A program made the position numbers and the translations under genes. Shown here piece by piece: positions 42,141 to 60,222 of a stretch of DNA of 64,000 nt. Below the pieces are notes generated by a model. It had not been told where the DNA came from, searched no databases, and was given only the letters and a program-made list of their open reading frames with translations. The DNA is taken from assembly GCF_014647155.1 (NCBI RefSeq), contig NZ_BMOQ01000002.1, forward strand, positions 186,001 to 250,000, read 5' to 3'. The stretch comes from Halarchaeum nitratireducens. GTDB lineage: Archaea; Halobacteriota; Halobacteria; Halobacteriales; Halobacteriaceae. The stretch's first letter is position 1. The number at the start of each line of letters is the position of its first letter.

Positions 42141-42296
42141 GACGCGTTCGTCCGTGCACAGCGCGTAGACCGCGCTCTCTGCGGTCCAGCGCCGGAGCGT
42201 CCGCAGGGCGCGGTAGGTGGCCGACTCCCGGATCGCCGCCAGCAGGCGCACACCGGCGTCTCGCACGTCGGGGGCAAAACCGTCCACGGTTCTCAC
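41988..42296 (-). CDS. Small membrane protein coupled to the GT4 gene
   Basis: This 102-residue protein has a charged N-terminal half (VRDAGVRLLAAIRESATYRA) and two C-terminal helices (VLLGALASFALASVVSVLA and KFLSFLLVAALVALVV). No family was recognised. The GTG start at 42296 overlaps the GT4 stop by GTGA, which supports its reality. Its 3' part overlaps the end of the plus-strand membrane gene tail-to-tail. Confidence 0.68.
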   Translation of the reverse strand: MRTVDGFAPDVRDAGVRLLAAIRESATYRALRTLRRWTAESAVYALCTDERVLLGALASFALASVVSVLASSLGAAIKFLSFLLVAALVALVVQRHLDPPPE

Positions 42297-43507
42297 CCGA
42301 CGCAAACCCGTTCGAGCAACGCCTCGACCCGGTCGGTGACGCGCGCCCACGTGTAGCCGGCGTCGAGGGCGTGTGCGCGACACGCCGCGCTCGCCCTCGC
42401 TCGCGCGCCGTCGTCCGTCCGGTGCCACGCCGCGAGCGCCTCCGCGAGCGCCGCCGAATCGCCCGGCGGGACGAGACAGCGCGCGGGGATCGCGGGCTCC
42501 GATTCGAGCGGCCCGAGTATCTCGGGCGTCGCGCCCGCCGTCGTCCCGACCACCGGCGTTCCCGCCGCGAGCGCCTCGACCGTGGCGAGACCGAACCCCT
42601 CGTGAGCGAGCGTCGGGAGGACGAACGCGTCGGAGCGCGCGTACGTCGCGGGGAGGCGTTCCTCGGGGACGTAGCCCGCGAACGTCACCCGGTCCGCCAC
42701 CCCCCGCGCCGCCGCCCGCGCTTCCAGCCCCTCCCGCTCCGGGCCCGCGCCGCCGATCGTCAACCCGACGTCCGCGCCCGACGCGACGACCGCCGCGAAC
42801 GCGTCGACGAGCGTGTGGAGTCCCATCCGCGGCGTGAGGCGGCGGACCGTGAGGAACTCCGTGCGGTGCCGGTCGGCGACCCGGTTTTTCGCCGCCGTCG
42901 AGGGCTCGCCGCCGGCCGCGTGCGGCGCGAACCGCTCGGCGTCCGCGCCGCCCGGGAGCACCGTGATCGGCGGGGCGTCAGGGTGGGCGGCCGCGACGCG
43001 TTCGCGCATGAACTCGCTCAGGACGACTGTCGCGTCGCTCCGCGCGAGCGTCCGGTCCTCGATCCGGTCCCGGAGGGTCCGGTTCGCCCACCGCCACGGG
43101 CGTTCGAGTCCCGACGCGTCGGGCGCGCGCTCGTCGTACTCGGTCGCCCAGAGGCCGTGGACCGTGTAGGTCCGCGGGACGGCGTCGGGGAGCGCCAGGT
43201 CGACGCCGAACGAGCCCAGCGCGCCGTGAAAGCAGGCGACGTCGATCGACGCGTCGCGTTCGATCGCGCGCACCCGCCGTTCGACGGCGCGCAGCGTCCA
43301 CGGGAGCCGCGGGATCGACGCCCGATAGCGGCGGACGTCCATCCCGGCGACCGTCTCGCGCGCCGGGGCGTCGCCGCGCCGCCGCGTGAGCACGGACACC
43401 CGGTGGCCGCGCGCGGCGAGCCGTCGGCCGACCTCGTAGTTGTACCGGCCGGACCCGGTGGCTTCGGGCTCCGGGAAGAGGTTGTTCGTCGCGGCGAGCA
43501 CGTGCAT
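42293..43507 (-). CDS. Family 4 glycosyltransferase
   Basis: This 404-residue GT-B enzyme starts MHVLAATNNLFPEPEATGSG with the glycine-rich acceptor motif. The donor domain has FLTVRRLTPRMGLHTLVDAF, GGAGPEREGLEARAAARG and EGFGLATVEALAAGTPVV. It shares the sequence around GVADRVTFAGYV with the GT4 at 38115, so the two are close paralogues. The start at 43507 is four codons after an upstream Met and removes a weak extension. It diverges from the sulfatase-like gene. Confidence 0.9.
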   Translation of the reverse strand: MHVLAATNNLFPEPEATGSGRYNYEVGRRLAARGHRVSVLTRRRGDAPARETVAGMDVRRYRASIPRLPWTLRAVERRVRAIERDASIDVACFHGALGSFGVDLALPDAVPRTYTVHGLWATEYDERAPDASGLERPWRWANRTLRDRIEDRTLARSDATVVLSEFMRERVAAAHPDAPPITVLPGGADAERFAPHAAGGEPSTAAKNRVADRHRTEFLTVRRLTPRMGLHTLVDAFAAVVASGADVGLTIGGAGPEREGLEARAAARGVADRVTFAGYVPEERLPATYARSDAFVLPTLAHEGFGLATVEALAAGTPVVGTTAGATPEILGPLESEPAIPARCLVPPGDSAALAEALAAWHRTDDGARARASAACRAHALDAGYTWARVTDRVEALLERVCVG

Positions 43508-43623
43508 ACCCGACGGCACACTGGGCGCGCGGGTGAGCCTTTCGCTCGGCCCGGAGCGCGGCGGACGTCGCGCGTCGCGCGACGAAAGAAAGACTGATTC
43601 GCGCGTCCGCCCGAACGCGGGGT

Positions 43624-44541
43624 ATGGACGCCCGTTCGCGCCTGTCGCGTGCGCTTGGTACCCCGCGGCTCTTCTTGCGTCACGCGAACCGGCTCTACCA
43701 CCGCCGCTTCGGCCTGCGGAGCCACGACACCGCCGGCGACGACCCCTTCGACGCGGAGTGGGACACGCTCGTGCTCCTCGACGGCTGTCGTTACGATACG
43801 TTCGCGCGACGCGCCGACCTCCCGGGGACGCTCGAACGCCGACGCTCGCCCGCGGCCTCGACGGTCGAGTTCCTCCGCGCGACCGTCGACGGCCGGGACC
43901 TCCGCGATACGGTGTACGTCACCGCGAACCCCCAGCTCCGCCAGCACGACGACGTCGACGCGAGCTTCCACGCCGTCGTCGACGTCTGGCGCGAGGACGG
44001 TTGGGACGACGAGACCGGCACGGTGCTCCCGGAGACGATGACGGCCTCCGCCCGAGAGGCCGCCCGCGACTACCCCGAAAAGCGCCTCGTCGTCCACTAC
44101 ATGCAACCCCACTACCCCTTCGTCGAGGCCGACACGACGGTCGATAAGGGCCACCTCGACGGTTCGATCGACGGCGAGAACGTCTGGAATCGCCTCCTCG
44201 CGGGCGACGCGGACGTCGACCCCGAGGTGGTCAGGGACCTCTACGCGGAGAACCTCGATCGCGCGCTCCCGCACGTCGCCGCGCTCCTCGACGACCTCGG
44301 CGGCCGGACGGTCGTCACCGCCGATCACGGCAACATGCTCGGCGAGCGCGCGTTCCCCATCCCGTACCGTGAGTGGGGCCACCCGCGCGGGCTCTACACG
44401 GACGAACTCGTCACCGTCCCGTGGCTCGTCGTCGAGCGCGGCGAGCGACGGACGATCACGCGGGGCGAGTCGGACCGGGCCGGGCGCGGCGACGACGCCG
44501 TCGTGCGAGAGCGCCTGCGCGATCTCGGCTACGCCGAATGA
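43624..44541 (+). CDS. Sulfatase/alkaline-phosphatase-superfamily enzyme
   Basis: This 305-residue soluble enzyme of the alkaline phosphatase superfamily has LVLLDGCRYDTFARR (metal Asp, with a Cys three residues after it), VHYMQPHYPFVEAD and VVTADHGNMLGERAF (Asp-His pair). Sulfatase-like proteins in haloarchaeal glycan clusters may add or remove sulfate or phosphate groups. It lacks the canonical CxPSR sulfatase signature, so a phosphatase or transferase role is equally possible. The stop overlaps the next GT4 start by ATGA. Confidence 0.8.
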   Translation: MDARSRLSRALGTPRLFLRHANRLYHRRFGLRSHDTAGDDPFDAEWDTLVLLDGCRYDTFARRADLPGTLERRRSPAASTVEFLRATVDGRDLRDTVYVTANPQLRQHDDVDASFHAVVDVWREDGWDDETGTVLPETMTASAREAARDYPEKRLVVHYMQPHYPFVEADTTVDKGHLDGSIDGENVWNRLLAGDADVDPEVVRDLYAENLDRALPHVAALLDDLGGRTVVTADHGNMLGERAFPIPYREWGHPRGLYTDELVTVPWLVVERGERRTITRGESDRAGRGDDAVVRERLRDLGYAE

Positions 44542-45773
44542 CTCTCGATCTCGGGTTCCTCCATCCGACGTATCCGGCGAGCGAGGGCACGGGCGCGTCG
44601 CACAGCGCCACCCGGATCGTCGCGGAGGTAGCGGCGCGCGGCCACGACGTGACCGTCTACTGTCGCGAGACGCCCGGGGACGACGCGACCGCGCCCGCCG
44701 GCGCGACGCTGCGCTCGCTCGATCGCTCGGGCTACCCCTACCACACCGGGCAGCAGTTCGACCGCGCGCTCCGCGACGTCCGCGCCGACCTCGCCGCCCA
44801 CGACGTCGTCCACAGCTACGTCATGAACGCCCTCCCGGTGCTCGGCGACCTCGCGCGCGAGACGGACACCGCGACCGTCCTAACGCTGAACGCCTACGGC
44901 GCGGTCTGCCCGAAGAACGACCTCCGGTACATGGACCGGGAGCCCTGCACGTCGAACGGCCTAGCGAAGTGTACGGCGTGTGCGCTCGCCACGAGCCCCG
45001 GCCACGACGAGTACGGCGCGCCGTACCGCGCCGCGAGCCGCCTCGGCTATCTCGACCTCGTCCGCCGAGGGGAGCGCGTCGCCGACGCGGTCGACGCCTA
45101 CCACGCACTCTCGGGGCACATCGAGGCGACGTACGGCGAGTTCGGCTTCCCCACCGAGCGCTTCGCGGTCGTCCCGAACCTCCTCGACGAGCGCTTCGAC
45201 CGCCCCCACGAGAGCGGCTTCGAGCCGCCCTACGACCTCCTCTACGTCGGCTCGCTCGACGAGCACAAGGGCGTCGACCGCCTCGTCCCCGCGCTCGCCC
45301 GACTGAACGCCGACTCGGACGACGACTACCGGCTGACCGTGGTCGGGGACGGGGGCCTGCGATCCGACGTCGAGGCGCGGGCGGCCGACGCGGGACTCGC
45401 CGACGCCGTGACGTGCACCGGCTGGATGGCGAACGACGACCTCCCCGGGGTCTTCGCGCGCCACGACTGCTTTCTCTACCCCGGTCGGTGGGACGAGCCG
45501 TTCGGCCGGGTGTTCCTCGAAGCCCTCGGGACCGGAACGCCGGTGGTGGCCACGGACGTCGGGAGCGTCGCGGACATCGTCGGCGCGGGGGGACGCGTCG
45601 TCGAGGGCGGCGTCGACGCGCTCGCCGCGGGGGTGCGGGACCTCGCCGACGACGGATTCGAGCGCGCGTCGCGGGCGGCGCGCGAGCGCGTCGACGACTA
45701 CCGACCCGCGACGGTCGTCCCGCAGTTCATCGCGCTCTACGAGCGGGCGCGCGAACGCGCTCGACGGTGGTGA
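44538..45773 (+). CDS. Family 4 glycosyltransferase
   Basis: This 411-residue GT-B enzyme has an N-terminal LGFLHPTYPASEGTGASHS, a cysteine-bearing insert (REPCTSNGLAKCTACAL, as in some GT4 enzymes that bind a small zinc knuckle) and a donor domain. The latter has DLLYVGSLDEHKGVDRLV, VVGDGGLRSDVE and EPFGRVFLEALGTGTPVV. It is translationally coupled to the sulfatase-like enzyme and should act on the same glycan. Confidence 0.9.
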   Translation: MTLDLGFLHPTYPASEGTGASHSATRIVAEVAARGHDVTVYCRETPGDDATAPAGATLRSLDRSGYPYHTGQQFDRALRDVRADLAAHDVVHSYVMNALPVLGDLARETDTATVLTLNAYGAVCPKNDLRYMDREPCTSNGLAKCTACALATSPGHDEYGAPYRAASRLGYLDLVRRGERVADAVDAYHALSGHIEATYGEFGFPTERFAVVPNLLDERFDRPHESGFEPPYDLLYVGSLDEHKGVDRLVPALARLNADSDDDYRLTVVGDGGLRSDVEARAADAGLADAVTCTGWMANDDLPGVFARHDCFLYPGRWDEPFGRVFLEALGTGTPVVATDVGSVADIVGAGGRVVEGGVDALAAGVRDLADDGFERASRAARERVDDYRPATVVPQFIALYERARERARRW

Positions 45774-45804: not shown

Positions 45805-47607
45805 CTAGCCGCGGCGTTGTGCGCCGTAGAGGTCGGCGTAGACGCCGCCTGCCTCGACGAGCTCCGCGTGTCGGCCGGATTCGACGACGCGGCCGTCCGC
45901 GAGCGCGTAGATGCGATCGGCGGTGCGGACGGTCGAGAGGCGGTGGGCGACGGTGAAGACGACGTAGTCGCGCTCCATCGACTCGATGGCGCGCTGGACG
46001 TCGCGTTCGAGCCGGGAGTCGAGGTCGCTCGTCGCCTCGTCGAGCACGAGCACGTCCGCGTCGGCGAGGAGCGCGCGCGCGAGCGCGACGCGCTGTTTCT
46101 GCCCGCCGGAGAGGCGGACGCCGTCGTCACCGAGGCGCGTCCCGTAGCCGTTCGGGAGGTCGTCGAGGAACTCGTCGACGCGCGCGAGCTCGCAGACGCG
46201 TTCGAGCTCGGCGTCCGTCGCGTCCCGATCGGCGAGCGTGAGGTTGTAGCGGAGCGTGTCGTCGAAGACGTAGGGGTCCTGTCGGACGACGGCGACGCGC
46301 TCGCGCCACGCGTCCACCGGCATCTCGGTGATCGGCGTCCCGTTCGCGCGGATCTCGCCGCCGTCGGGGTCGTAGAGGCGGGCGAGGAGCGAGACGATCG
46401 TCGACTTCCCCGCGCCCGACGAGCCGACGAACGCGACGAACTCACCGGCCTCGGCGGTGAAGCTCACGCCGTCGAGGACCGTCGCTTCGTCGTCGTAGGC
46501 GAACGTCACGTCGTCGAACGCCACGGACGTCACGCGCTCGGGGACGGGCGCCGTCCCGCCCTCGGGTTCGGCGTGGCCGGCGAGCTCCGCCGTGAACACC
46601 CGCGTGCGCACGAGGTGCGGGAGGTCGTTCTCGACCTGGTAGAGGAGCTCGTGGGCGCGACTCGCCTTCGGGCCGAGGCGGAACGCCGCGAAGAGGAAGA
46701 GCCCGAGCGAGCCGAGGCCCAGATTGGCGTACGTGAGCGCGGCGTAGACGAGGCCGAAGACGGAGACGGCGACGGCGAACTGATAGCAGTTCGTGATCGC
46801 CGCCTCGTTGCGCCGGAGGGTGATCCGGGCGTCGGTGTAGCGCTCGACCGCGGCCCGGAAGGTGTCGTACACCTCCTCGCGGAGGCCGAACAGCCGGACG
46901 TCGCGGATGCCCTGGGTTCCGGCCTGCGCGGCCGACTGGCGCCGCTCGTTCGCGTCCGCGACGGCCGCGCCGACGTCGTAGCCGGAGTCGACGACGCGGT
47001 GGACGACGACCGTCACGCCGCCGAGGACGACGGCGGTGGCGACGGTGAGCGTCGGGGAGACGAGGAGCGCGATGAGGCCGTAGGCGAACGCGAGCATCGA
47101 CTGCTCGACGAAGAGGACGACGCGCTTGATGACGCGGCCGGCGTAGAACGTCTGCGTGACGAGCGCGTTCAGGACGTCGTCGGAGCCCGCCTCGTCGTAG
47201 TAGGCGATGCGGGCGTCGAGGGCGCGCTCGAAGGCGCGCAGTTGGAGGTCGCGGACGTAATACGTCCGCAGCGCCTCGCGGAGCCACGCGACGAGGAAGC
47301 TCGACGCGAAGCGGACGGCCATCACGACGGCGACGCCGGCGACGGCCGTGCCGAGCGTGAGCGGGACGCCGACGGCGCGGTACGCCCGGACGAACAGGCC
47401 GCCGATCCCGTCCGTCGCGGGCCGTCCCGCGGTACCGACGAGTTCGATGATCGGGAGGACGAAGCTCAGCCCGACCCCCTCCAGGACGGCCGCGAGGAGG
47501 CCGAGCAGGACGATGCCGGCGGTGAGACGCGGGCTGTACGCGGCGACGCCGGCGAGCGCGTCGAGTTTCTCCCGTCGGGTGGCGGTCGGGAGGTCGTCGT
47601 CCGTCAT
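45805..47607 (-). CDS. ABC exporter with fused membrane and ATPase domains (MsbA-like)
   Basis: This 600-residue half-exporter has six N-terminal helices (about residues 30-330) and an ATPase with GSSGAGKST, LSGGQKQRVALARA and VLVLDEATSDLD, plus the H-loop FTVAHRLSTVR. It should act as a homodimer flipping a lipid-linked molecule, here probably a glycolipid, since it converges with GT4 and sulfatase-like genes. The start at 47607 begins MTDDDLPTATRREKLDALAG, the soluble lead-in typical of the family. An upstream in-frame start is less likely. Confidence 0.9.
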   Translation of the reverse strand: MTDDDLPTATRREKLDALAGVAAYSPRLTAGIVLLGLLAAVLEGVGLSFVLPIIELVGTAGRPATDGIGGLFVRAYRAVGVPLTLGTAVAGVAVVMAVRFASSFLVAWLREALRTYYVRDLQLRAFERALDARIAYYDEAGSDDVLNALVTQTFYAGRVIKRVVLFVEQSMLAFAYGLIALLVSPTLTVATAVVLGGVTVVVHRVVDSGYDVGAAVADANERRQSAAQAGTQGIRDVRLFGLREEVYDTFRAAVERYTDARITLRRNEAAITNCYQFAVAVSVFGLVYAALTYANLGLGSLGLFLFAAFRLGPKASRAHELLYQVENDLPHLVRTRVFTAELAGHAEPEGGTAPVPERVTSVAFDDVTFAYDDEATVLDGVSFTAEAGEFVAFVGSSGAGKSTIVSLLARLYDPDGGEIRANGTPITEMPVDAWRERVAVVRQDPYVFDDTLRYNLTLADRDATDAELERVCELARVDEFLDDLPNGYGTRLGDDGVRLSGGQKQRVALARALLADADVLVLDEATSDLDSRLERDVQRAIESMERDYVVFTVAHRLSTVRTADRIYALADGRVVESGRHAELVEAGGVYADLYGAQRRG

Positions 47608-47749: not shown

Positions 47750-48853
47750 ATGAGGCTTGTCGATGAGGACGGGCGGCTGTTCGGCCGCGTCAACGTCGTC
47801 GACGCCGTCGTCGTCCTCGTCGTCCTCGCCGCGGTCGTCGCGGGCGTCGTCGCGTTCGTCCCGCTCGGCGGTGGGGGCGAGCAGGCGACGCGCTACGCGA
47901 CCGTCGACCTCGGTACGCAACCGCCCGCGGCGGCCGAGCGCATCGAAGCGGGCGATCGCTCCGCGGACGGGGACGTCGTCGTCACCGACACGTACGTCGG
48001 GCCCGCCGCGGACGGCGCGAACGCGTCCGTCGTCGTCCGCGTCCGCGTGAACGGGACGCTGGCCGGCGACGGGGACGACCGCGTCTTCGAGCGCGACGGC
48101 GAACCGCTCCGTCGCGGCGACGCGCTCTCCTTCGAGACGCCGAGCTACGCCGTCTCGGGCGACGTGCTCCGGGTCGATGCGGACGGCGAGACGCTGCCCG
48201 TCGGCTCGCTCCCCGTCCTCCTCGAAGCGACGCTCTCGCCGGCCACCGCAGACGCCGTCTCGGTCGGCGACACGTCCCGAATCGACGACCGACGGACCGC
48301 GCGCGTCACGGGCGTCACGACCGCCCCGGTGGCGAACGGGAGCGACCGGCGGGCGCTGCTCGGCGTGCGGGTACACACGCTGAATCGCTCCGGGAGCACG
48401 TACTTCGGCGCGACGCCCGTGAAGGTCGGCGAGTCCCTCCGCTTCGACACGGACCAGTACGCGCTGACGGGGACGGTGGCGCGGTGGGGGAACGCCTCGC
48501 CGCCGGGGTCGCCGACGACGACGACGGCCGTCGTCTCGCTCACCGACGTCGCCCCGACCGTCGCGGACGGCCTCCGGGCGGGGTTGGTCGAGCGCCGCGA
48601 CGGCCGGACGACGGCGCGGATCACCGACATCCGCACGGAGAACGCGACGGTGGTGCTCACGAGCGACGACGGCCACATCTACGAGCGAGAGCACCCCGAG
48701 AACGTGGACGTCGAACTCACCGTCGACCTCCGAACGCGCGCGACGGCGGACGGTCTGCGCTTCCACACGCGCGCGCTCCGTGAGGGAACGCGCGTGACGC
48801 TCGACTTCCGGACGGTCGCGGTCGATGGCACCGTCACGCGAATCCGTGGGTAG
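47750..48853 (+). CDS. DUF4330-domain membrane-anchored protein
   Basis: This 367-residue protein has DEDGRLFGRVNVVDAVVVLVV at the start, the DUF4330 signature with one transmembrane helix (about residues 15-40). The rest is extracytoplasmic and beta-rich, consisting of about three similar repeats with segments like RRGDALSFETPSYAVSGDV and KVGESLRFDTDQYALTGTV. The family is often encoded beside exopolysaccharide or S-layer glycan genes and may be an extrusion or attachment factor. It begins after the divergent ABC exporter. Confidence 0.82.
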   Translation: MRLVDEDGRLFGRVNVVDAVVVLVVLAAVVAGVVAFVPLGGGGEQATRYATVDLGTQPPAAAERIEAGDRSADGDVVVTDTYVGPAADGANASVVVRVRVNGTLAGDGDDRVFERDGEPLRRGDALSFETPSYAVSGDVLRVDADGETLPVGSLPVLLEATLSPATADAVSVGDTSRIDDRRTARVTGVTTAPVANGSDRRALLGVRVHTLNRSGSTYFGATPVKVGESLRFDTDQYALTGTVARWGNASPPGSPTTTTAVVSLTDVAPTVADGLRAGLVERRDGRTTARITDIRTENATVVLTSDDGHIYEREHPENVDVELTVDLRTRATADGLRFHTRALREGTRVTLDFRTVAVDGTVTRIRG

Positions 48854-48903: not shown

Positions 48904-48919
48904 TTCAGGTGCGCCTAAA
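48904..48919. promoter_or_regulatory. Putative iron box of the siderophore operon
   Basis: TTCAGGTGCGCCTAAA fits the consensus with one mismatch (TTC for TTT). It overlaps a TATA-like AAAAAATACT at 48917-48926, so binding would block promoter recognition. Confidence 0.6.
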
Positions 48920-48936
48920 AAATACTATCGAGAACC

Positions 48937-49014
48937 GTGAACGGAGGATCGACACCGACCCGTCACACCGGCGGGCGGCGGGTGAGCGAACGTGTCCGCG
49001 GTGACGCGATATGA
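48937..49014 (+). CDS. Possible 25-codon leader peptide before the acetyltransferase gene
   Basis: GTG 48937 begins VNGGSTPTRHTGGRRV and ends at a TGA overlapping the ATG at 49011 (ATGA). The main gene also has a GGTGA ribosome-binding site at 49000-49004. Whether the leader is translated is unknown. Confidence 0.25.
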   Translation: MNGGSTPTRHTGGRRVSERVRGDAI

Positions 49015-49592
49015 CCTGTCCGCGCGAGGCCGTCGGGTCGACGTACAGCTATCGGACGGTCGCCGAGTCCGGTGCCGAACTCGGCTTCCGGGAGGTGTCG
49101 CTCGACCGGGACCTCGGTCGACTGCACGCGTGGTTGAACAGCGACCACGTGCTCCCCTACTGGCAGCAGGACGACCCGCTGCCGGTGGTCCGGGACACGA
49201 TCAGCGAGCGCGCCGCCGACGAGCACCAGACGCTCTACGTCGGCTACCGCGACCACGTCCCGATGAGCTACTGGGAGTCCTACTGGGCGGCCCACGACCG
49301 CCTCGCGGACCACTACGACGCCGAGCCGGCCGATCAGGGCATCCACCTCCTCATCGGCCCGACGGAGTACCTCGGCCGCGGCTACGCCGCGCCGCTCATC
49401 CGCGCGATGGTCGACTTCCAGTTCCAACACCCCCGGACGGATCGGATCGTCACGGAGCCCGACGCCCGCAACGAGCGCGCGATCCGCGCCTTCGCGGCCG
49501 CGGGGTTCGAGCGCCGCGGCGAGATCAAGTTCCCCGACAAGACCGCCCAGTTCATGGTCCGGGAACGCGAGACGACCGCGCCCGATGAGTGA
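49011..49592 (+). CDS. IucB-like hydroxylysine/hydroxamate acetyltransferase
   Basis: This 193-residue GNAT enzyme is predicted to acylate an N-hydroxylated diamine or lysine to give a hydroxamate, the iron-binding group of the siderophore. It has the siderophore-type GNAT motifs: HVLPYWQQDDP, the acetyl-CoA loop IGPTEYLGRGYAAPLI, and DARNERAIRAFAAAGFERRG, with FPDKTAQFMV at the end. The ribosome-binding site GGTGA lies seven bases upstream. It overlaps the next gene by eight bases. Confidence 0.88.
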   Translation: MTCPREAVGSTYSYRTVAESGAELGFREVSLDRDLGRLHAWLNSDHVLPYWQQDDPLPVVRDTISERAADEHQTLYVGYRDHVPMSYWESYWAAHDRLADHYDAEPADQGIHLLIGPTEYLGRGYAAPLIRAMVDFQFQHPRTDRIVTEPDARNERAIRAFAAAGFERRGEIKFPDKTAQFMVRERETTAPDE

Positions 49593-50949
49593 GGACGTGT
49601 ACGACCTCGTCGGCGTCGGCGTCGGTCCGTTCAACCTCGGGCTCGCCGCCCTCCTCGACGACGTCGAAGCCGACTGCGACGCCGCCTTCCTCGAACAGCG
49701 CGCCGCGTTCGACTGGCACGAGGACATGCTCATCGAGGGGACGACGCTCGAAGTGCCGTTCCTCGCGGACCTCGTCACGATGGTCGACCCGACGAGCCCG
49801 TACAGTTACCTCAACTACCTCCGCGCGGAGAACCGCCTCTACGAGTTCTACTTCTACGAGGAGTTCTTCCTCCCGCGTCGCGAGTACAACGCCTACTGCC
49901 GATGGGTGGCCGAACAGCTCCCGTCGCTCCGGTTCCGCCGGCGCGTCACGTCCATCGACGTCGAGGACGACGGGGACGCCTATCGCCTCACCGCGATCGA
50001 CCCCGAGACGGGCGAGCGCGAGACGTACCTGACCGAGAACGTCGTCGTCGGCATCGGCACGCGCCCGCGCGTCCCGGACCGATTCGCGGACGTCCGCGGC
50101 GACGACGTCTTCCACACGGCGAGCTACCTCGGGAACCGCGAGCGGTGTCTCAACGCCGAGCGGATCACCGTCGTCGGCTCCGGGCAGAGCGCGGCGGAAG
50201 TCGTCCGCGACCTCCTCGAACGCCAGCCCGAGCACGGCTACGCGCTCGACTGGCTCACCCGCTCGCGCGGGTTCTTCCAGATGGCCGACGCCAAGCTCGG
50301 CCACATGATCTACACGCCCGACTACACCGACTACTTCTACGACCTCGATCAGGCGACGAAGGACGAGCTCCGCGAGGGACAGACCCTCCTCTACAAGGGG
50401 ATCGACGAGCGGACGAGCGCGGCGATCTACGACCTGCTCTACGAGGGGTCGATCGGCGCCGCAGAGCCCGACGTCGGGATGCTCGCCGCGACCGAGGTAC
50501 GGGAGATTGGGCCCGCGCCCGACGGCGACGGCTACGCCCTCCTCTGCGAGCAGTGGCAGGAGAGCGAGCGCTTCGTGCAGGAGAGCGACGTCGTCGTGCT
50601 CGGCACGGGGTACGAACGCGTCGAGCCGCCGTTCGCCGCGGGACTCGCCGACCGCCTCGAACGCGACGACGCGGGGCGACTCGACGTCACCCGCGACTTC
50701 CGACTCAGCGGCGACGACCTCCCGGGTGAGATATACGTCCAGAACGCCGAGATCCACACGCACGGGATCAACGCGCCCGATCTCGGCCTCGGTCCGTATC
50801 GGAACGCGGTCATCCTCGACGGCCTGCTGGCGGCGTCGCCCTACGGGACCGAGCTCGCCGACGTCTTCCAGAGCTTCTCGGTCGACGACTACCTCGCGCG
50901 CCGCGAGAGCGCCCGCCGCGTCGCGGCCCCTCCGAATCCCGACGATTAG
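49585..50949 (+). CDS. iucD: IucD-like lysine/ornithine N-monooxygenase
   Basis: This 454-residue flavoenzyme uses NADPH and O2 to hydroxylate the terminal amine of lysine, ornithine or a diamine, the first step of hydroxamate siderophore synthesis. Motifs are FAD-binding GVGVGPFNLGLA, WHEDMLIEGTTL with FLADLVTMVDPTSPYSYLNYL, NADPH-binding VVGSGQSAAEV and the family motif VVVLGTGYE. The family cannot be split into lysine or ornithine by eye; lysine or cadaverine is suggested by the paired IucB-like gene. It follows the acetyltransferase with an eight-base overlap. Confidence 0.9.
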   Translation: MSEDVYDLVGVGVGPFNLGLAALLDDVEADCDAAFLEQRAAFDWHEDMLIEGTTLEVPFLADLVTMVDPTSPYSYLNYLRAENRLYEFYFYEEFFLPRREYNAYCRWVAEQLPSLRFRRRVTSIDVEDDGDAYRLTAIDPETGERETYLTENVVVGIGTRPRVPDRFADVRGDDVFHTASYLGNRERCLNAERITVVGSGQSAAEVVRDLLERQPEHGYALDWLTRSRGFFQMADAKLGHMIYTPDYTDYFYDLDQATKDELREGQTLLYKGIDERTSAAIYDLLYEGSIGAAEPDVGMLAATEVREIGPAPDGDGYALLCEQWQESERFVQESDVVVLGTGYERVEPPFAAGLADRLERDDAGRLDVTRDFRLSGDDLPGEIYVQNAEIHTHGINAPDLGLGPYRNAVILDGLLAASPYGTELADVFQSFSVDDYLARRESARRVAAPPNPDD

Positions 50950-50950
50950 C

Positions 50951-52849
50951 ATGGTCGGGCTCTCCGGCGTCGTCGGCGCGGGCGCCACCGAGACCGAGGT
51001 CGACACCGTCCCCGCCACCGTCGACGACGAGGTCCGCGGGACGCACCGAGCCGACGGCGTCGCGGTCCGTACCGCGTTCCACCGGGGCGCGAGCGTCGAG
51101 CAGCCGGTCACCGCGCCCGACGGCGCGCTGATCTGGGTCTGGGGCGAGGTGTACGGCGTCGGGGACGGCGACGAGCGCGAGCGCGTCGATCCGCGCGAGA
51201 CGGCGCGCGTCTGCGCCGCGCAGTCCGCCGCGCACGGCCGGTCGTTCCCCGACCGTCTCGACGGCGAGTTCGCGGGCGTCCGCTACGATCCAGAGACGGG
51301 ACGCGCCACGCTCTTCACGGATCGCCTCGGCGCGCACCCGCTCTACTACGCCGTCGGCGACGACGCGCTCGCCTTCTCGACGAGCGTCCAGAGCGTCCCC
51401 GAAGTCGACGGCGCGGCGTTCGCCTTCGCCCCCGACTACCTCGCCGAGTACCTCTACGCGCGCCGAACGTTCGGCACGCGGACGCCGGTCGCGGGGATCG
51501 ACCAGCTTGCGCCCGCGACGACCGTCGCGTACGACCCGGCCGACGGCGGGCTCGACGAGCGGCGCTACTGGGCGCCACGATACCGCCCGGTGGACCGGCC
51601 GCTCTCGCACTACGTGGACGAACTCGCCGAGCGCTTCGCGGCCGCCGTCGCCGACCGCACGGCGGACGACCGGGCCGCGGGCCTGCTACTGAGCGGCGGG
51701 AGCGACTCGCGGGCGGTGCTCGCGGCCGCGGGGGAGGGCGCGGACGCGAGCGCGGTCGGGGACAGGCGCGAGCGGGCGGGCGGAAGCGGGGGCGGAGAGC
51801 CGATCCGCGCCTACCACATGAACGACGGCTGGAACCGCGAGGCGCGGATCGCGCGGCGGATCGCGGACACCGGAGACGCGCCGTTCACGCTCCTCGACCG
51901 CGGGCCGTCGTACCACGAGACGCTCTTGGAGCGCGCCGCGCCGATCCAAGAGTTCATCGGCCCGTTCAACACCGGCCACGCGCTCGGGTTCGCGTCGGAG
52001 CTCGCCGCCGACGTCGACGTCCTGCTCACCGGTCTCTACAGCGACTCGCTCTTCGGGCCGTGGAGCGTCCCCTCGCCGGAGGTCCCGCTGCCGTACGGTG
52101 CGAGCCTCCCGCTCCCGATCACCGACCTCCCCGAGACCGTCGAGGAGTACGCCGCCGCCCACGCGGCCTCGCAGCCGGCGCGCGATCCCGACTACCTCGA
52201 CGCGCCGCCGCTCGATCAGCTCGTCCGCGAGAACGTCCGCGAGGGCATCGCGTCGATCGATCACCACGGCGTCGACCACCCGGACGTGGAGCGCCTCGCG
52301 CTGAGCGAGTTCTACTACCCGATCACGAACGGCATCGGCTTCGACCTCTACAGCGCGCTCCAGATCGCGCCGACGCGCAACCCCTTCCTCGACCGGCGAC
52401 TCGTCGACCTCCACCTCGAGATCCCCCTGCGATACCGCCTCCGGCACGACCTCGTCGCGCTCGCGCTCGAACGCCTCGACGAGGAGCTGGCGGCGATCCC
52501 ACACCCGAGCACGCGGCTCCCGCTCACCGCGCCGCACCTCGCGCACGTCGTCGCCGCGCCCGCGTCGAGCCTCCTCGACAAGCTCCGCGGCGGGCGCGAC
52601 TCGTACCGGACGTGGGGGCCGTGGCAGGACAAGGACGCGCTGCTCCGCGAGCGCGACTTCGTCGGCGACGCGCTCCGCGAGGCGGACGACGTCGTCCGCG
52701 CGCTCCCGGGCGTCGATCGGGACGCCGCGTGGGAGACGTACCGGCGCCACCGCGCGGGCGAGATCGACGCCGGCGAGGAGCTCTACCGACTCCTGACGGT
52801 CGCCGCGACGCCGCTGGCGGCGCGACTCGTCGGAGACGACAGCGAATAG
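50951..52849 (+). CDS. Asparagine-synthetase-like enzyme lacking the glutaminase cysteine
   Basis: This 632-residue protein has the two-domain asparagine synthetase fold. The N-terminal Ntn domain keeps WVWGEVYG and TDRLGAHPLYYAV, but begins MVGLSGVVG, with Val where active glutaminases have the catalytic Cys2. The synthetase domain has the ATP pyrophosphatase motif SGGSDS at residues 248-253 and TGLYSDSLFG. Such Cys-less enzymes, for example beta-lactam synthetase and lasso-peptide cyclases, adenylate a carboxylate and let an amine attack. It starts one base after the hydroxylase stop, so it may condense or cyclise the hydroxamate precursor. That role is an inference. Confidence 0.8.
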   Translation: MVGLSGVVGAGATETEVDTVPATVDDEVRGTHRADGVAVRTAFHRGASVEQPVTAPDGALIWVWGEVYGVGDGDERERVDPRETARVCAAQSAAHGRSFPDRLDGEFAGVRYDPETGRATLFTDRLGAHPLYYAVGDDALAFSTSVQSVPEVDGAAFAFAPDYLAEYLYARRTFGTRTPVAGIDQLAPATTVAYDPADGGLDERRYWAPRYRPVDRPLSHYVDELAERFAAAVADRTADDRAAGLLLSGGSDSRAVLAAAGEGADASAVGDRRERAGGSGGGEPIRAYHMNDGWNREARIARRIADTGDAPFTLLDRGPSYHETLLERAAPIQEFIGPFNTGHALGFASELAADVDVLLTGLYSDSLFGPWSVPSPEVPLPYGASLPLPITDLPETVEEYAAAHAASQPARDPDYLDAPPLDQLVRENVREGIASIDHHGVDHPDVERLALSEFYYPITNGIGFDLYSALQIAPTRNPFLDRRLVDLHLEIPLRYRLRHDLVALALERLDEELAAIPHPSTRLPLTAPHLAHVVAAPASSLLDKLRGGRDSYRTWGPWQDKDALLRERDFVGDALREADDVVRALPGVDRDAAWETYRRHRAGEIDAGEELYRLLTVAATPLAARLVGDDSE

Positions 52850-53011: not shown

Positions 53012-54139
53012 TCAGCGCTCGAACCACTGGAGCGGGTGGTCCGCGACGACGTCGACGGTGACGGGCCGTCCGACGTCGAAGAGCTCCGTGTGGTTGTGCA
53101 TGCAGTGGATGCTGTCTCCCTCGGTCGTCTCGACGCGGTAGACGAACGAGGGGCCCTGGTACTGGCGCTGCGTGAGCCGGCCGTCGGCGGTCGCCTCGTC
53201 CGCGGCGGGGCGGGCCTGGAGGTCGTCCGGGCGGACGAGCACGTCGATCGTCGTGCCGTCGGGGAGATCGAGACCCGGGAAGTGCGCGGCGTCGAGGCGG
53301 CCGATGTCGGTCTCGACGGCGTCGCCGTCGACGCGGCCCGTGAGGAAGCCGGCCTGTCCGAGGAAAGAGGCGACGAAGCGCGACGTCGGGCGCTCGAAGA
53401 TGCGCTCGGGGCGACCGATCTGCTGGAGGCGCCCGTCGTTCATCACGCCGACGCGGTCGGCGATGGAGAGCGCCTCCTCCTGGTCGTGCGTCACCCAGAT
53501 GGCAGTGACGCCGGTCTCGTCGATGATGCGACGCATCTCCTCGCGCATCGAGACGCGGAGCGCCACGTCGAGGTTCGAGAGGGGTTCGTCGAGGAGGAGG
53601 ACGTCCGGTTCGGGGGCGAGCGATCGCGCGAGCGCGATCCGCTGTTTCTGCCCGCCGGAGAGCTCTTCGGGGTAGTGCTCGGCGTGGTCGTCGAGACCGA
53701 CGAGTTCGAGCAGTTGCGCGACGCGCGCCTCGCGCTCCTCGGCCGGCCGATCGTCGATCCCGAACGCGACGTTCTCGGCGGCGTTCAGGTGCGGGAACAG
53801 CGCGAAGTCCTGGAACACCAGCCCAATGTCGTGCTCCTCGGGCGGGACGAACGCGCCGGCGTCGGGATCCGCGAGCGTCCGGTCGCCGAGGGTGATCGTG
53901 CCGGCGTCGGCGCGTTCGAGGCCCGCGATCATCCGGAGCGTCGTGGTCTTCCCACAGCCGGAGGGGCCGAGGAGCGCGAGGATCTCCCCGTCGACGACGG
54001 ACATGGAGAGGTCGTCGACGGCGGTCTCGGGGCCGTACGTCTTGGTGATCCCGGACAGCGCGAGCACCGTCTCGGCGTCGGCGTCGGCGCTGTCCGCTGT
54101 GGGCGATGCGTCGGAGCGTCGGTGAGTCGTGCGTGACAT
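53012..54139 (-). CDS. fbpC: Fe(III) ABC transporter ATP-binding protein (FbpC-like)
   Basis: This 375-residue ATPase has Walker A GPSGCGKTT near residue 58, the Q-loop LVFQDFALFPH, signature LSGGQKQRIALARS, Walker B VLLLDEPLSNLD and the H-loop VTHDQEEAL. A C-terminal OB/TOBE domain follows (about residues 265-375), as in FbpC and PotA-type ATPases. Its ATG lies three bases after the permease stop. It powers the Fe(III) importer encoded with it. Confidence 0.9.
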   Translation of the reverse strand: MSRTTHRRSDASPTADSADADAETVLALSGITKTYGPETAVDDLSMSVVDGEILALLGPSGCGKTTTLRMIAGLERADAGTITLGDRTLADPDAGAFVPPEEHDIGLVFQDFALFPHLNAAENVAFGIDDRPAEEREARVAQLLELVGLDDHAEHYPEELSGGQKQRIALARSLAPEPDVLLLDEPLSNLDVALRVSMREEMRRIIDETGVTAIWVTHDQEEALSIADRVGVMNDGRLQQIGRPERIFERPTSRFVASFLGQAGFLTGRVDGDAVETDIGRLDAAHFPGLDLPDGTTIDVLVRPDDLQARPAADEATADGRLTQRQYQGPSFVYRVETTEGDSIHCMHNHTELFDVGRPVTVDVVADHPLQWFER

Positions 54140-54142
54140 GGA

Positions 54143-55792
54143 TTACTTCTCCTGTGAGAGGATGACGACCATCGAGAGCGCGGAGACGACGATGAGGACG
54201 AACGCGGGGATCGCGGCCGCGCCGTAGCTCCCGGACTCACGGACCGCCCAGATGTAGGTGACGAGGGTGTCGAACCCCGTCGGCTGGAGGAGCAGCGTCG
54301 CCGGGAGCTCCTTCATCGTCGTGAGGAAGACGAGCGCCGCGCCCGCGAGGACGCCGGGGGCGATGAGGGGGAGCGCCACCCGACGGAACGCCCCCAGCGA
54401 GGACTGCCCGAGGAGGCGCGCGGCCTCCGTGAGTTCGCGATCGACCCGCATCACGGACGAGCGGGTGGCGCCGACCGACTGGGGGAGGAAACGGACGACG
54501 TACGCGAAGATCAACAGCGGGAGCGTCTGATAGAGCGCCGGGAGGTACGAGGCGATCCCGACGACCGACGAGAGGTCGTCGACGGCGGCGCCGTAGGAGA
54601 CGCCGAAGAACACGAGCGCGAGGCCGAGGACGATCCCGGGCATCGCGTAGCCGATGTAGGTGGCCCGATCGATCACCTCCGCGATCGTCGAGCGGTGCCG
54701 GGCGGCGAGGTAGGCGACGGGGATCGCGGCCAGCGCGCACACGACCGCCGCGGCCACCGAGACGAGCACGGAGTTGGTCGCGTACGACCACTCGAAGACG
54801 AGGCGCGTCCGGCCGACGTCGGAGGCGCCGCGGCGGAACCAGACGAACAGCACGGCGAGGGGGACGACGAGGCACATCGTGACGACGGTCGCGCAGAAGG
54901 CGAGCGCGGGGGCCTTCCAGCGGCCGAGCGCGACGGTCGTGTCGCTGCTCGTGCTCGCGCGCGTGCCGACGTACGCCCCCTGCGTGGAGTCGCCGACCCG
55001 GGACTGGACGGCGAGGATGACCGCGGTGATGGTGAGGAGCTGGAGCGACAGCATCGCGGCCGTCTCGCGGCCGAATCCGTTGAAGTCCACCCAGATAGCC
55101 TGCGTGAGGACTTCGAGACGGAGGAGGTTCGGCGTCCCGAAGTCCGAGAGCGCGTAGAGCGCGACGAGCAACGCCCCGGAGGCGATCCCGGGGACGAGCT
55201 GCGGGAGGGTGACGCGTCGGAAGGCCTCCAAGCGCGAGACGCCGAGGGTACGCGCGGCCTCGACGAGCGACTCGTCGAAGGAGAGCAGCGACGCCCGCGT
55301 GGTGATGAACACGTAGGGGAACGTATAGAGTGTGAGGACGAGGGCGACGCCGCCGAAGCCGTAGACGGAGGGGACGGAGTCGATTCCGAGGGGCGCGAGC
55401 ACGCCGGCGATGTAGCCGCTGGGGCCGAACGCGGAGATGTACGTGAACGCCCCGAGGTAGCTGGGGATGACGAGCGGGAGCGCGACCGCGATGGTCCAGA
55501 AGCGCCGGAACGGCAGGTCCGTCCGGACGGTGAGGAACGCGAGCGGGACGCCGATCACGACGGACGCCCCGGTGACGACCGCGACGAGCGCGATGCTCGT
55601 GGCGAACGTCGAGGGTTGAGTCACCAGCGAAACGTCGCCCTCGGCCTCGAAGACGCGGAGGAGGATCCACGCGATCGGCGACAGTACGGCCGCCGCGATC
55701 GCGCCGCTCAGGAGGACGAGCCCGGTGGGGAGGTCGGAGTCCCCAGAACGGGCGTGGGCGAACGGTGCCGCGAGCCGATCGAGGGCCGACAT
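54143..55792 (-). CDS. fbpB: Fe(III) ABC transporter permease (FbpB-like)
   Basis: This 549-residue permease has two homologous halves of about six helices each. The ATPase-docking loops are LVEAARTLGVSRLEAFRRV and LTEAARLLGQSSLGAFRRV, one per half, as in FbpB/SfuB. A single fused chain therefore forms the whole channel. It is separated by a single base from the binding-protein gene (55794) and by three bases from the ATPase. Confidence 0.92.
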   Translation of the reverse strand: MSALDRLAAPFAHARSGDSDLPTGLVLLSGAIAAAVLSPIAWILLRVFEAEGDVSLVTQPSTFATSIALVAVVTGASVVIGVPLAFLTVRTDLPFRRFWTIAVALPLVIPSYLGAFTYISAFGPSGYIAGVLAPLGIDSVPSVYGFGGVALVLTLYTFPYVFITTRASLLSFDESLVEAARTLGVSRLEAFRRVTLPQLVPGIASGALLVALYALSDFGTPNLLRLEVLTQAIWVDFNGFGRETAAMLSLQLLTITAVILAVQSRVGDSTQGAYVGTRASTSSDTTVALGRWKAPALAFCATVVTMCLVVPLAVLFVWFRRGASDVGRTRLVFEWSYATNSVLVSVAAAVVCALAAIPVAYLAARHRSTIAEVIDRATYIGYAMPGIVLGLALVFFGVSYGAAVDDLSSVVGIASYLPALYQTLPLLIFAYVVRFLPQSVGATRSSVMRVDRELTEAARLLGQSSLGAFRRVALPLIAPGVLAGAALVFLTTMKELPATLLLQPTGFDTLVTYIWAVRESGSYGAAAIPAFVLIVVSALSMVVILSQEK

Positions 55793-55793
55793 C

Positions 55794-57074
55794 CTACAGC
55801 GCGCCCACCTCTCGGAGCAGGTCGAGGGTCGGCTCGACGTTCGCCAGTTTGCTCAAGTCGAGTTCGGGCGGGTTGAGCTGGTCGATCGTCGGGAGGTTGC
55901 CGACCGGCGGTACGCTGGAGAGCAGCGGGTAACCGAAGCCGCGGGTTCCGAGGAACTCCTGAAGCTCGATGGAGAGCAGGTGGTGGATGAAGTTCGCGGC
56001 CGTCTCGGGGTCGGCGCTGTTCTTGATCACCTGCGCGCCCGAGCAGTTGACGAGCGCCCCGGCGTCGCTGTTCGTGAAGGCGAGTTCGAGCGGCGCGTCG
56101 GGGCGCTCCTCGTAGACGAGCCGCGAGTAGTAGTGATTCGAAAAGCCCGCGGAGAGCTCGCCCGAGGCGACGGCGTTCGCCACCTGGAACTCGTTTCCGT
56201 ACTTCCTGACGCCGTGGTCCTGCATGGCTTCGAGCCACTGCTTGGTCGCCTCGCGGCCGTTGAGTTCGCGCATCGCGGTGATGAACGCCTGGAAGGCGCC
56301 GTAGGTCGGGGCCCACCCCATCTCGTCCTCGAAGCGCGGATCGTCGGGGAACGCCGCGACCTTGTCCGGGATCCCGTCGGCGTCGAACTCGTTCGTGTTG
56401 AACGGGATCGAGCGCGCCCGACCCATGATCCCGACCCACTCGTCAGTCGGGTGGTAGGTGTCCGCGACGGACTGCGTGACGTGATCGGGGAGGGTGACCG
56501 TCGCGCCGTTCTCGGCGACGACCCCGACCGAGCCGGCGTCGATGGCCCAGAAGACGTCCGCGGGGCTCTGACCGGCGTTCGCCTCCTCGATGATCGTGTT
56601 CGCGAGCTGCGAGGAGGACGCGGTCCGGATGTAGACGGTGAAGTCCCGATAGAGGTTCTGAATGCGCTGCATCGCGTCCTCGTAGAGACCGCCCTCGCCG
56701 CCGCCGAGGTAGACCGTGATCTCCCCGCGGAGGTTGGGGAGGTCGAGCACCGACAGCCCGGTGTACTCGGTGGGGCGCTCGCCGACCTGCGGGCCGTCAC
56801 CGCGCCACTCGTCCATGTGGAATAGCTCGTCCTCCGCGTACGTCTTGGGCTCGGGGACGGTAGACGTCGACGTCGACGTCGACGAGCCGCCGTCGGTGGT
56901 CGTCTCGCTCGTCGTCTCGCCGTCAGTACCACCGCCGCTACAGCCGGCGAGGCCGAGGATGCCCGCGCTCGCCCCGACGGCCTGCAGGAACGAGCGCCGG
57001 TCACCGACGGCGTCGCGGGCCCGCGAGAGGCCGGTCCGATCGTCGTCGATACCGTCTCGCGTGGAGTGATCCAT
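55794..57074 (-). CDS. fbpA: Fe(III)-binding lipoprotein (FbpA-like)
   Basis: This 426-residue protein has a Tat-type signal with DRRSFLQAVGASAG and lipobox LAGC, a Ser/Thr linker and a type 2 binding fold. The adjacent tyrosines Tyr315-Tyr316 (SNHYYSRL) match the pair that binds Fe(III) in FbpA/SfuA, and SSSQLANTIIEEANAG and MGRARSIPFN are family segments. It heads the fbpABC operon, with an iron box at 57086-57101. It probably captures unchelated or loosely held Fe(III) outside the cell. Confidence 0.92.
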   Translation of the reverse strand: MDHSTRDGIDDDRTGLSRARDAVGDRRSFLQAVGASAGILGLAGCSGGGTDGETTSETTTDGGSSTSTSTSTVPEPKTYAEDELFHMDEWRGDGPQVGERPTEYTGLSVLDLPNLRGEITVYLGGGEGGLYEDAMQRIQNLYRDFTVYIRTASSSQLANTIIEEANAGQSPADVFWAIDAGSVGVVAENGATVTLPDHVTQSVADTYHPTDEWVGIMGRARSIPFNTNEFDADGIPDKVAAFPDDPRFEDEMGWAPTYGAFQAFITAMRELNGREATKQWLEAMQDHGVRKYGNEFQVANAVASGELSAGFSNHYYSRLVYEERPDAPLELAFTNSDAGALVNCSGAQVIKNSADPETAANFIHHLLSIELQEFLGTRGFGYPLLSSVPPVGNLPTIDQLNPPELDLSKLANVEPTLDLLREVGAL

Positions 57075-57085
57075 GTCGTAATGTG

Positions 57086-57101
57086 TTTTGGGTCGCCTAA
57101 A
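57086..57101. promoter_or_regulatory. Putative iron box of fbpABC
   Basis: TTTTGGGTCGCCTAAA fits the consensus with one mismatch in the left half. It overlaps a TATA-like CTATTTTAG (minus strand, about 57097-57105) and lies 12 bases before the fbpA ATG. Confidence 0.6.
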
Positions 57102-57249: not shown

Positions 57250-57265
57250 TTTAGGTTTACCTAAA
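57250..57265. promoter_or_regulatory. Putative iron box of the sugar transferase gene
   Basis: TTTAGGTTTACCTAAA has perfect half-sites. It lies between a TATA-like TTTTAATT (57243-57250) and the ATG at 57287. Confidence 0.75.
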
Positions 57266-57286: not shown

Positions 57287-58705
57287 ATGCACGACGCGAC
57301 ACACACACGCCGGGCGCTCCGGATCGTCGGGACGACGCTTCTCACGGCGCTCGCGGTTCTCATCGCCAACGCCGCCCCGACCCAGACCGCCCTCGCCCGA
57401 CTCCCCGGATCGCGCTTCGTCGCGCTCTCGTTCGGCGGCGTCGGTCTCCTCGCGCGACTCGGCGCGGCGCTCGTCGTCACGGTGCTCGTCGTCCACGCGC
57501 TGCGGGACCCGAGCGCGCGGCGCCCTCACGAGACCGTCGCCGCGACGCTGCGGGCGCTCGGCGCCGTCGCCCTCTCGCTCGCGGCGCTCGGCTACTTCGA
57601 CGTCCCGTACCGACTCCCCCGGACCACGCTCGTCGGCACGGTCGCCGTCCTCGCCGTCCTCCTCCCCGCGTGGTTCGTCGCCCTCGACCGGGGGCGGAAT
57701 CGAGCGGAGGGAACGCTGGTCGTCGGCGCCGACCCGCGACAGATCTCGGCCGCGCTGGAGGCGACCGCACGCCCGGTCGTCGGCTACGCGTCCGCCGTCT
57801 CGTGGCCGAGCGGGCCGGCCGCCGACGGACAGGTCGACACGGACGGGGGCGACGACTCCGTGGCGACGACGCTCGCCGAACACGAGCGCCTCGGCGGCCT
57901 CTCCCGACTCGACGACCTGCTCGCGAACGCGGACGTCGACACCGTCGTTCCCGCCCTCCCGCACGCCGACCGCGCGGAGTTCTTCGGGATCCTCGACGTC
58001 TGCCGGCGGCACGGCGTCGACGTCTCCGTTCCCGACGAGCACGGCGGCGTCCTCCTCGCGGAGGAGGAAGGCGACGCCGATCGCCGGGGCGGGTTCGACC
58101 GCATCGACCTCGAACCGTGGGGCGTCGGCGCCCGAGTCGGCAAACGCGCGTTCGACGTCTGTTTCGCCGCGCTCGTCCTCTGCGCGACGCTCCCCGTCTT
58201 CGCCCTCGCCGCGCTGGCGATCACGATCGAGGACGGCGGCTCGGTCTTCTACGCGCAAGAGCGGACGACGCTGTTCGGCGACACCTTCGACGTCTACAAG
58301 TTCCGAACGATGCGCCCCGAGAGCGAGTCCGCGACCCCCGGCGCCGGCGACGACCGCGTCACCCGCGTCGGGCGGCTGTTGCGGCGGACGCACGTCGACG
58401 AGCTCCCGCAGTTCTGGGCCGTCCTGCGCGGGCGGATGAGCGTCGTCGGCCCGCGCGCGGCGTGGACGGCCGAGGAGGAACTCCTCCTCGCGGAGACCGG
58501 TGCGTGGCGCAAGCGCTGGTTCGTCAAGCCGGGCCTGACCGGCCTCGCGCAGCTCCACGACGTGTCGAGCGAGACGCCGGCGGAGAAGGTGCGCTACGAC
58601 GTCGAGTACATCCGCCGACGCTCGCTCGCGCTCGACGCGTCCATCGTCGCGCGACAGCTGTGGCGGGTCGCAACCGAGGTCGGCTCCCTCGTGAGGGGCG
58701 TCTGA
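57287..58705 (+). CDS. Polyprenyl-phosphate sugar-1-phosphate transferase (WcaJ/WbaP-like)
   Basis: This 472-residue membrane enzyme is predicted to transfer a sugar-1-phosphate from a nucleotide sugar to a polyprenyl phosphate, starting a glycan. Four helices precede a CoA-binding-like soluble domain. The catalytic part begins KRAFDVCFAALVLCATLPVF and has the motifs FYAQERTTLFGDTFDVYKFRTM, DELPQFWAVLRGRMSVVGPR and KPGLTGLAQLHDVSSET. It follows a perfect iron box, which is unexpected for glycan synthesis. The start at 57287 is the first Met after that box. Confidence 0.88.
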   Translation: MHDATHTRRALRIVGTTLLTALAVLIANAAPTQTALARLPGSRFVALSFGGVGLLARLGAALVVTVLVVHALRDPSARRPHETVAATLRALGAVALSLAALGYFDVPYRLPRTTLVGTVAVLAVLLPAWFVALDRGRNRAEGTLVVGADPRQISAALEATARPVVGYASAVSWPSGPAADGQVDTDGGDDSVATTLAEHERLGGLSRLDDLLANADVDTVVPALPHADRAEFFGILDVCRRHGVDVSVPDEHGGVLLAEEEGDADRRGGFDRIDLEPWGVGARVGKRAFDVCFAALVLCATLPVFALAALAITIEDGGSVFYAQERTTLFGDTFDVYKFRTMRPESESATPGAGDDRVTRVGRLLRRTHVDELPQFWAVLRGRMSVVGPRAAWTAEEELLLAETGAWRKRWFVKPGLTGLAQLHDVSSETPAEKVRYDVEYIRRRSLALDASIVARQLWRVATEVGSLVRGV

Positions 58706-60206: not shown

Positions 60207-60222
60207 TTTAGGCTAGCCTAAA
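60207..60222. promoter_or_regulatory. Putative iron box of the duplicated-domain secreted protein gene
   Basis: TTTAGGCTAGCCTAAA is a perfect palindrome identical to the site at 40209. It lies between the ATG at 60201 and a TATA-like CTTTAGTTA (about 60225-60233). Confidence 0.75.

Follow-up and report, generated by a model that had tools for sequence, protein, structure and literature searches.

A putative iron-regulated haloarchaeal locus combining hydroxamate-forming enzymes, a cysteine-less asparagine-synthetase-like protein and glycan genes

How is a hydroxamate siderophore completed in a genome that encodes the enzymes forming the hydroxamate group, but no synthetase of the IucA/IucC type? 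To our knowledge, hydroxamate siderophores are completed either by nonribosomal peptide synthetases (NRPS) or by IucA/IucC-type synthetases, the latter defining the NRPS-independent siderophore (NIS) pathway. The question is raised by a 64-kb stretch of a Halarchaeum genome (hereafter the window; assembly of 3.14 Mb, 98.2% complete), where genes for an IucB-type N-acyltransferase, an IucD-type N-hydroxylase and an asparagine-synthetase-like protein (hereafter AsnB-like) form a single tight unit downstream of an iron box, in a genome without IucA/IucC. The reading frames of IucB and IucD overlap by 8 nucleotides, and AsnB-like starts 1 nucleotide past the IucD stop; coordinates, Pfam matches and box (Table 1) thus bear out an earlier note, made from the sequence alone, of three overlapping or abutting genes behind an iron box. 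We give a nearly even chance to the view that this locus serves under iron starvation to produce a hydroxamate chelator attached to a glycan that is exported, with AsnB-like replacing IucA/IucC.

Distribution of the triplet and of IucA/IucC

The N-hydroxylase and N-acyltransferase required by the NIS hydroxamate pathway are provided by IucD and IucB. The earlier note had seen no IucA/IucC adjacent and had proposed to look for it in the rest of the genome; a search of the whole genome for PF04183 returned no match, while the Haloferax volcanii positive control was matched. IucA/IucC was not found by this profile in five further genomes (G129, G006, G040, G218 and G371) either. Among 392 haloarchaeal genomes of the order, a strong IucD was present in 94, IucA/IucC in 121 and the tight AsnB-like clade (at least 56% identity) in eight. 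This clade occurred in all six IucD genomes lacking IucA/IucC versus 2/88 of those possessing it (Fisher p = 3e-8), and in the exception G150 the best IucA/IucC match and the sole IucD lie on different contigs. The congener G141 carries a normal IucA/IucC locus, and the AsnB-like protein of Halarchaeum rubridurum JCM 16108 is 87% identical to that of the window.

A search for the same triplet, as the earlier note had proposed, recovered the order IucB-IucD-AsnB-like in 8/8 genomes of the clade. The triplet IucDs and the AsnB-like proteins form clades with support values of 100/100 and 100/99, respectively, and identical internal branching, so that, judged from their trees, IucD and AsnB-like are inherited together. 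On this distribution it is likely that AsnB-like substitutes for IucA/IucC. A conserved lineage with an AsnB-fold protein in their place would represent a new siderophore ligation enzyme, and genome mining for NIS clusters based on IucA/IucC would overlook the locus.

Two alternatives already bear on this distribution. In the main one, the product is a soluble, low-mass hydroxamate siderophore in which AsnB-like, alone or with a second copy, couples citrate or some other small acid with an N-hydroxy-N-acyl-diamine; the glycan genes would then be neighbours, or serve to glycosylate or export the siderophore. Second AsnB-like copies of the same clade are indeed present in G006, G371 and G150, each under its own iron box (3/3, including the G150 copy, detached by about 40 kb), and recall the IucA/IucC pair; however, there is a single copy in 5/8 triplet genomes, and for this and further reasons given below we consider a soluble siderophore unlikely, though the strongest competitor. 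The other alternative is that AsnB-like modifies a glycan and has no part in hydroxamate assembly, the IucB/IucD product being a small secreted monohydroxamate and iron co-regulation the only connection. G130, basal in the IucD clade, has an IucB-IucD pair without AsnB-like, as would then be expected, but it also has a canonical iuc locus; moreover, the strict gene order in eight genomes, the near-zero spacing in the window, the matching trees and the presence of AsnB-like exactly where IucA/IucC is missing render this alternative improbable. The G130 pair (L069, 8513-10452) lies beside an EamA transporter, with no iron box nearby.

Iron boxes and the wider conserved locus

Iron boxes were defined by the pattern TTWGGNNNNCCWAA, exact or with at most one mismatch as stated, and a predicted site of this kind, the TTAGGNNNNCCTAA-type palindrome of the haloarchaeal iron regulon, stands upstream of the triplet. 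This predicted box is similar to sites used by regulators of the haloarchaeal DtxR family. The window holds six sites with at most one mismatch versus 0.13 expected, and the whole genome 27 exact sites versus one for the reversed pattern. Exact boxes numbered 25 in the 159 kb of the eight triplet neighbourhoods versus none in the 418 kb of 21 neighbourhoods of distant AsnB-like relatives.

The positions of the boxes are also conserved. All eight orthologous loci have one 90-135 nucleotides upstream of IucB, and all eight have one upstream of the gene for FbpA, the binding protein of a linked iron importer. A box precedes the initiating sugar transferase in four of the five distinct loci holding that gene, and, outside Halarchaeum, the glycosyltransferase GT2 in 3/3 loci with a free-standing copy; the start codon of GT2 in G040 and G218 instead shares bases with the AsnB-like stop codon (ATGA), which places GT2 in the triplet operon there. 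The exporter has its own iron box in five loci of other genomes, and DUF4330 is boxed in some genomes. Hence, putative iron boxes are common to the triplet and to genes for glycans and for Fe3+ import. A single iron regulon for the triplet and for genes that build sugars would suggest glycans that trap iron.

This larger iron-boxed glycan, export and Fe3+-import locus had been overlooked in the earlier note. Window genes were compared by tblastn with 20-kb neighbourhoods, some genes falling outside some of these stretches. The set is common to eight genomes, drawn from five or more families in addition to that of the window, mostly at 55-75% identity (syntenic GT4s, sugar transferase, exporter and DUF4330 in families f4, f5, f7, f8 and f14), and comprises three GT4s, a GT39-like and an alkaline-phosphatase-like protein, an ABC exporter, DUF4330, the triplet, FbpC-FbpB-FbpA, GT2 and the sugar transferase. 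An exporter orthologue lies at or near the triplet in 8/8 genomes. The five DUF4330 orthologues of at least 59% identity are all at triplet loci, the next best reaching 45-47%, and the nearest relatives of the alkaline-phosphatase-like protein (65-90%) are likewise in triplet loci. The window's GT2 is the counterpart of the GT2 overlapping AsnB-like in two other genomes, here displaced by about 43 kb. An initiating sugar transferase, glycosyltransferases and an exporter together have the makeup of a surface polysaccharide locus, and an FbpA-type protein, a fused permease and an ATPase that of an FbpABC importer; the match of FbpA to ferric-iron-binding proteins assigns this importer to the ferric-ion type.

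The AsnB-like family itself is mostly found in surface-glycan loci. Distant relatives (33-43% identity) adjoin genes for GT2, GT8, the sugar-transfer ATP-grasp protein ATPgrasp_ST and a polysaccharide flippase, as well as FkbM methyltransferase, phosphodiesterase and FemAB-like genes, which makes a surface-glycan family the probable origin of the triplet AsnB-like. Among named plasmid records, those with the best coverage contain AsnB-like relatives of only 34-40% identity and no member of the tight clade. A glycan-associated family is what one would expect if AsnB-like merely modified a glycan; it also speaks against the soluble siderophore, as do the ferric-ion type of the linked importer and the sugar transferase and GT2 lying in the same iron regulon or even operon. 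For the soluble siderophore, on the other hand, speak the linked ABC exporter and the same IucB/IucD chemistry proposed for schizokinen in Haloferax (PMC7407949).

Predicted chemistry of the three enzymes

The N-terminus of AsnB-like reads MVGLSGVVG and its ATP-site motif LLLSGGSDSR, in agreement with the earlier note of Val at the glutaminase position and an intact SGGSDS. The catalytic Cys2 of glutamine-dependent AsnB is absent here and was found in 0/30 aligned family members (relatives at 33-87% identity), while three AsnBs of other haloarchaea in the comparison set begin with MCGI, i.e. with Cys2. The start of AsnB-like is therefore not mis-called, and a wrong gene start concealing a Cys, which the earlier note had held open, was rejected. 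Since the loss is a trait of a whole haloarchaeal family, a point missed in that note, AsnB-like should not act as a glutaminase. In contrast to Cys2, the nucleotide loop (S248, G249, G250, D252 and S253, the SGGxDS ATP-pyrophosphatase motif) is invariant across the 30 sequences. In a profile comparison with solved structures the hydroxyamidotransferase 7ylz ranked first (E = 3.8e-23), followed by the human and E. coli asparagine synthetases, beta-lactam synthetase and CarA; no NCBIfam family was matched at or above its cut-off. An AlphaFold model with one relative as input had a mean pLDDT of 32 and was not used.

In the ornithine and lysine N-hydroxylases SidA and PvdA, a Lys binds the substrate carboxylate. 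The position of SidA Lys107 is Ala60 in the triplet IucD, as in DfoA/FbsI and all haloarchaeal relatives examined, and among solved structures this IucD comes closest to the diamine hydroxylases DfoA, DesB and FbsI (E = 2e-101 to 3e-93), with lysine and ornithine hydroxylases far behind. With its PF13434 fold and no carboxylate-binding Lys, IucD is thus of the diamine type; the IucD/IucB block is therefore expected to have a free amine but to lack a carboxylate, so that lactam formation is unlikely. Triplet IucDs have a substrate loop of the MADAKLGHMIY type versus MEYSKLGLQHF in canonical haloarchaeal ones, and a second motif of the INAPDLG type versus VGxPDLG.

From these assignments, the first two steps would be those of an ordinary hydroxamate siderophore, IucD N-hydroxylating a diamine-type amine and IucB acylating the resulting hydroxylamine. 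AsnB-like would then activate a carboxylate with ATP and link it through an amide bond to the amine left free in this hydroxamate block. If AsnB-like does replace IucA/IucC, we judge a glycan acceptor to have somewhat more than one chance in two, the carboxylate most likely being on a sugar such as a uronic acid. Synthesis of the glycan would fall to the sugar transferase and GT2, both co-regulated, together with the GT4s at the locus, and its export to the ABC transporter linked to them; hydroxamate-bound Fe3+ would be passed to FbpABC. Tentatively, and at rather less than even chance, we thus propose a polysaccharide-linked siderophore, in which a Cys-less ligase of the AsnB fold adds hydroxamates as side chains to glycan carboxyls and iron enters as Fe3+ through FbpABC. 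Such a route, if real, would add a third assembly logic to those of NRPS and IucA/IucC. Genes for UDP-sugar dehydrogenase and for arginase-family (agmatinase-type) proteins are present in 8/8 triplet genomes, where uronic acids and putrescine are possibly available; these genes are not specific to them.

Several observations count against the glycan-linked chelator. The AsnB motif GEGADE reads GLYSDS in AsnB-like, with AsnB Glu348 replaced by Leu, and the catalytic Lys (AsnB K449, beta-lactam synthetase K443) is not conserved, the Lys loop of Cys2 enzymes (KRALTDA or KRVLKRA) giving way to hydrophobic residues in a weakly aligned C-terminal part. The coupling half-reaction could therefore differ or be absent, and these two replacements, also overlooked in the earlier note, favour a glycan-modifying role outside hydroxamate assembly; AsnB-like looks like an ATP-using carboxylate activator whose second half-reaction is unlike those of AsnB and beta-lactam synthetase. 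Five of the other triplet genomes (G006, G371, G040, G218 and G208) lack DDC. DUF4330 at lower identity is also found without the triplet, as is the alkaline-phosphatase-like family, with matches in 345/392 genomes, and glycan genes exclusive to the triplet were accordingly rejected for both. The window's exporter, DUF4330, GT4s and GT2 have no iron box. Finally, a BtuF/FhuD-like substrate-binding protein (Peripla_BP_2; 29902-31098, minus strand) has an exact box 4 nucleotides upstream (31102-31115), so a soluble siderophore would fit too; its gene was not found in the 20-kb stretches around other triplets.

The absence of DDC also bears on the amine. The canonical haloarchaeal substrate was proposed to be 1,3-diaminopropane, made via DAT and DDC (PMC7407949). 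The search for these genes suggested by the earlier note did find a pair on contig C1 of the same genome (L173, 6756-9589), 67% and 55% identical to the canonical ones, but with no iron box and no iuc genes nearby. Since DDC is missing in those five triplet genomes and the window genome's own pair is unboxed, the amine is probably not diaminopropane as a rule, and diaminopropane was rejected as a shared substrate. DDC is moreover present in G170 and G088, both without IucD.

The earlier note had instead raised lactam formation or cyclisation as a possibility. In this reading AsnB-like would convert a hydroxamate amino acid into a ring, and macrocyclisation of N-succinyl-type blocks, as by DesD, belongs to the same view. 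Beta-lactam and carbapenam synthetases are glutaminase-dead and make an amide bond without ammonia, and beta-lactam synthetase requires an active-site Lys. The rank of beta-lactam synthetase and CarA among the nearest solved relatives and the retained nucleotide loop agree with a cyclising role; however, the diamine-type IucD would yield an amine-bearing block with no carboxylate of its own, unless IucB added a dicarboxylic acyl group, and the required Lys is not conserved. We therefore regard cyclisation as highly improbable. What stands of the new assembly logic suggested at the time is an AsnB-fold enzyme in place of IucA/IucC across genomes.

Known systems and further features

The locus has likenesses to four known systems. 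With the dat-bdb-iucABDC (schizokinen) locus of Haloferax volcanii it shares homologous IucB and IucD, and canonical iuc loci within the genus and family of the window (L074 and L075) carry the same iron box; in contrast, the genome here has no IucA/IucC and the locus no DAT-DDC, IucD falls into a separate clade whose substrate loop is changed, and AsnB-like and glycan genes stand instead. TsnB9/SaHAT (7ylz), the best structural match, is likewise an AsnB fold in hydroxamate biosynthesis, and hydroxamate formation by a hydroxyamidotransferase of the trichostatin type involves ATP-dependent activation of a free carboxylate (PMC13418202); TsnB9, however, transfers the hydroxylamine group of glutamyl hydroxamate, whereas here the hydroxamate is expected from IucD/IucB and the glutaminase Cys2 is missing. 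The beta-lactam and carbapenam synthetases (1jgt and 1q15) similarly combine an N-terminal domain without glutaminase and an SGGxDS site, but form an intramolecular ring in an antibiotic gene context with an active-site Lys that AsnB-like does not conserve. Surface polysaccharide AsnB-like amidotransferases (XrtA/PEP-CTERM, TIGR03108) belong to the same superfamily and a glycan context, yet AsnB-like scores 49 against the 817-bit cut-off and belongs to a haloarchaeal family without Cys2, here beside IucB/IucD. In the open-access literature no matching report was found of an asparagine synthetase in hydroxamate siderophore assembly, nor of polysaccharide-bound hydroxamates or iron-trapping glycans.

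Table 1. Positions in the window of the triplet, its iron boxes and the linked genes.
Feature	Position	Strand	Remarks
GT2 glycosyltransferase	5111-6013	+	72-75% identical to GT2s in L070 and L071
GT4 glycosyltransferase	38115-39239	+	synteny
PMT/GT39-like membrane protein	40872-42140	+	weak PMT_2 match; synteny
GT4 glycosyltransferase	42293-43519	-	synteny
Alkaline-phosphatase/sulfatase-like protein	43675-44541	+	motif-based; no Pfam match
GT4 glycosyltransferase	44538-45773	+	kept in 8/8 loci
HepA/MsbA-type ABC exporter	45805-47607	-	about 600 aa; listed TTG open reading frame extends to 47793
DUF4330 protein	47750-48853	+	immediately 5' of triplet in 6/8 loci
Iron box TCAGGTGCGCCTAA	48905-48918	.	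one mismatch to TTWGGNNNNCCWAA; 93 nucleotides 5' of IucB start
IucB-type N-acyltransferase (GNAT, Acetyltransf_8)	49011-49592	+	PF13523, E = 1.6e-52
IucD-type flavin N-hydroxylase	49585-50949	+	PF13434, E = 1.8e-111; nearest solved DfoA/DesB/FbsI
Cys-less asparagine-synthetase-like protein (AsnB-like)	50951-52849	+	PF00733 Asn_synthase, E = 4e-16; GATase_7, E = 2e-10
FbpC-like ABC ATPase	53012-54139	-	adjoins triplet in 8/8 loci
FbpB-like fused permease	54143-55792	-	synteny at triplet loci
FbpA-like ferric-iron-binding protein	55794-57074	-	best solved match 7w3w, E = 6e-46; also HitA, FbpA
Iron box at FbpA	57087-57100	.	upstream of FbpA
Iron box at sugar transferase	57251-57264	.	23 nucleotides 5' of sugar transferase
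Initiating sugar transferase (Bac_transf, exopolysaccharide type)	57287-58705	+	PF02397, E = 3.6e-54

The Cys-less AsnB-like family is large in haloarchaeal surface-glycan loci (L078-L097 and many of 209 genomes), often beside phosphodiesterase and FemAB-like genes, and is annotated merely as asparagine synthase-related; the triplet would give a first functional handle on it. Other iron boxes mark further genes. In the window, an exported two-repeat protein with an RRTFLK signal and no Pfam match (58771-60201, minus strand), possibly iron-binding, has an exact box at its start (60208-60221), and a DoxD/DoxX-like membrane protein (39553-40170, minus strand; exact box 40210-40223) adjoins a halocyanin-like copper protein (40294-40734). 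On contig C1 (L175, 3246-5806), two tandem surface-type genes have near-identical starts, the second with two iron boxes directly upstream.

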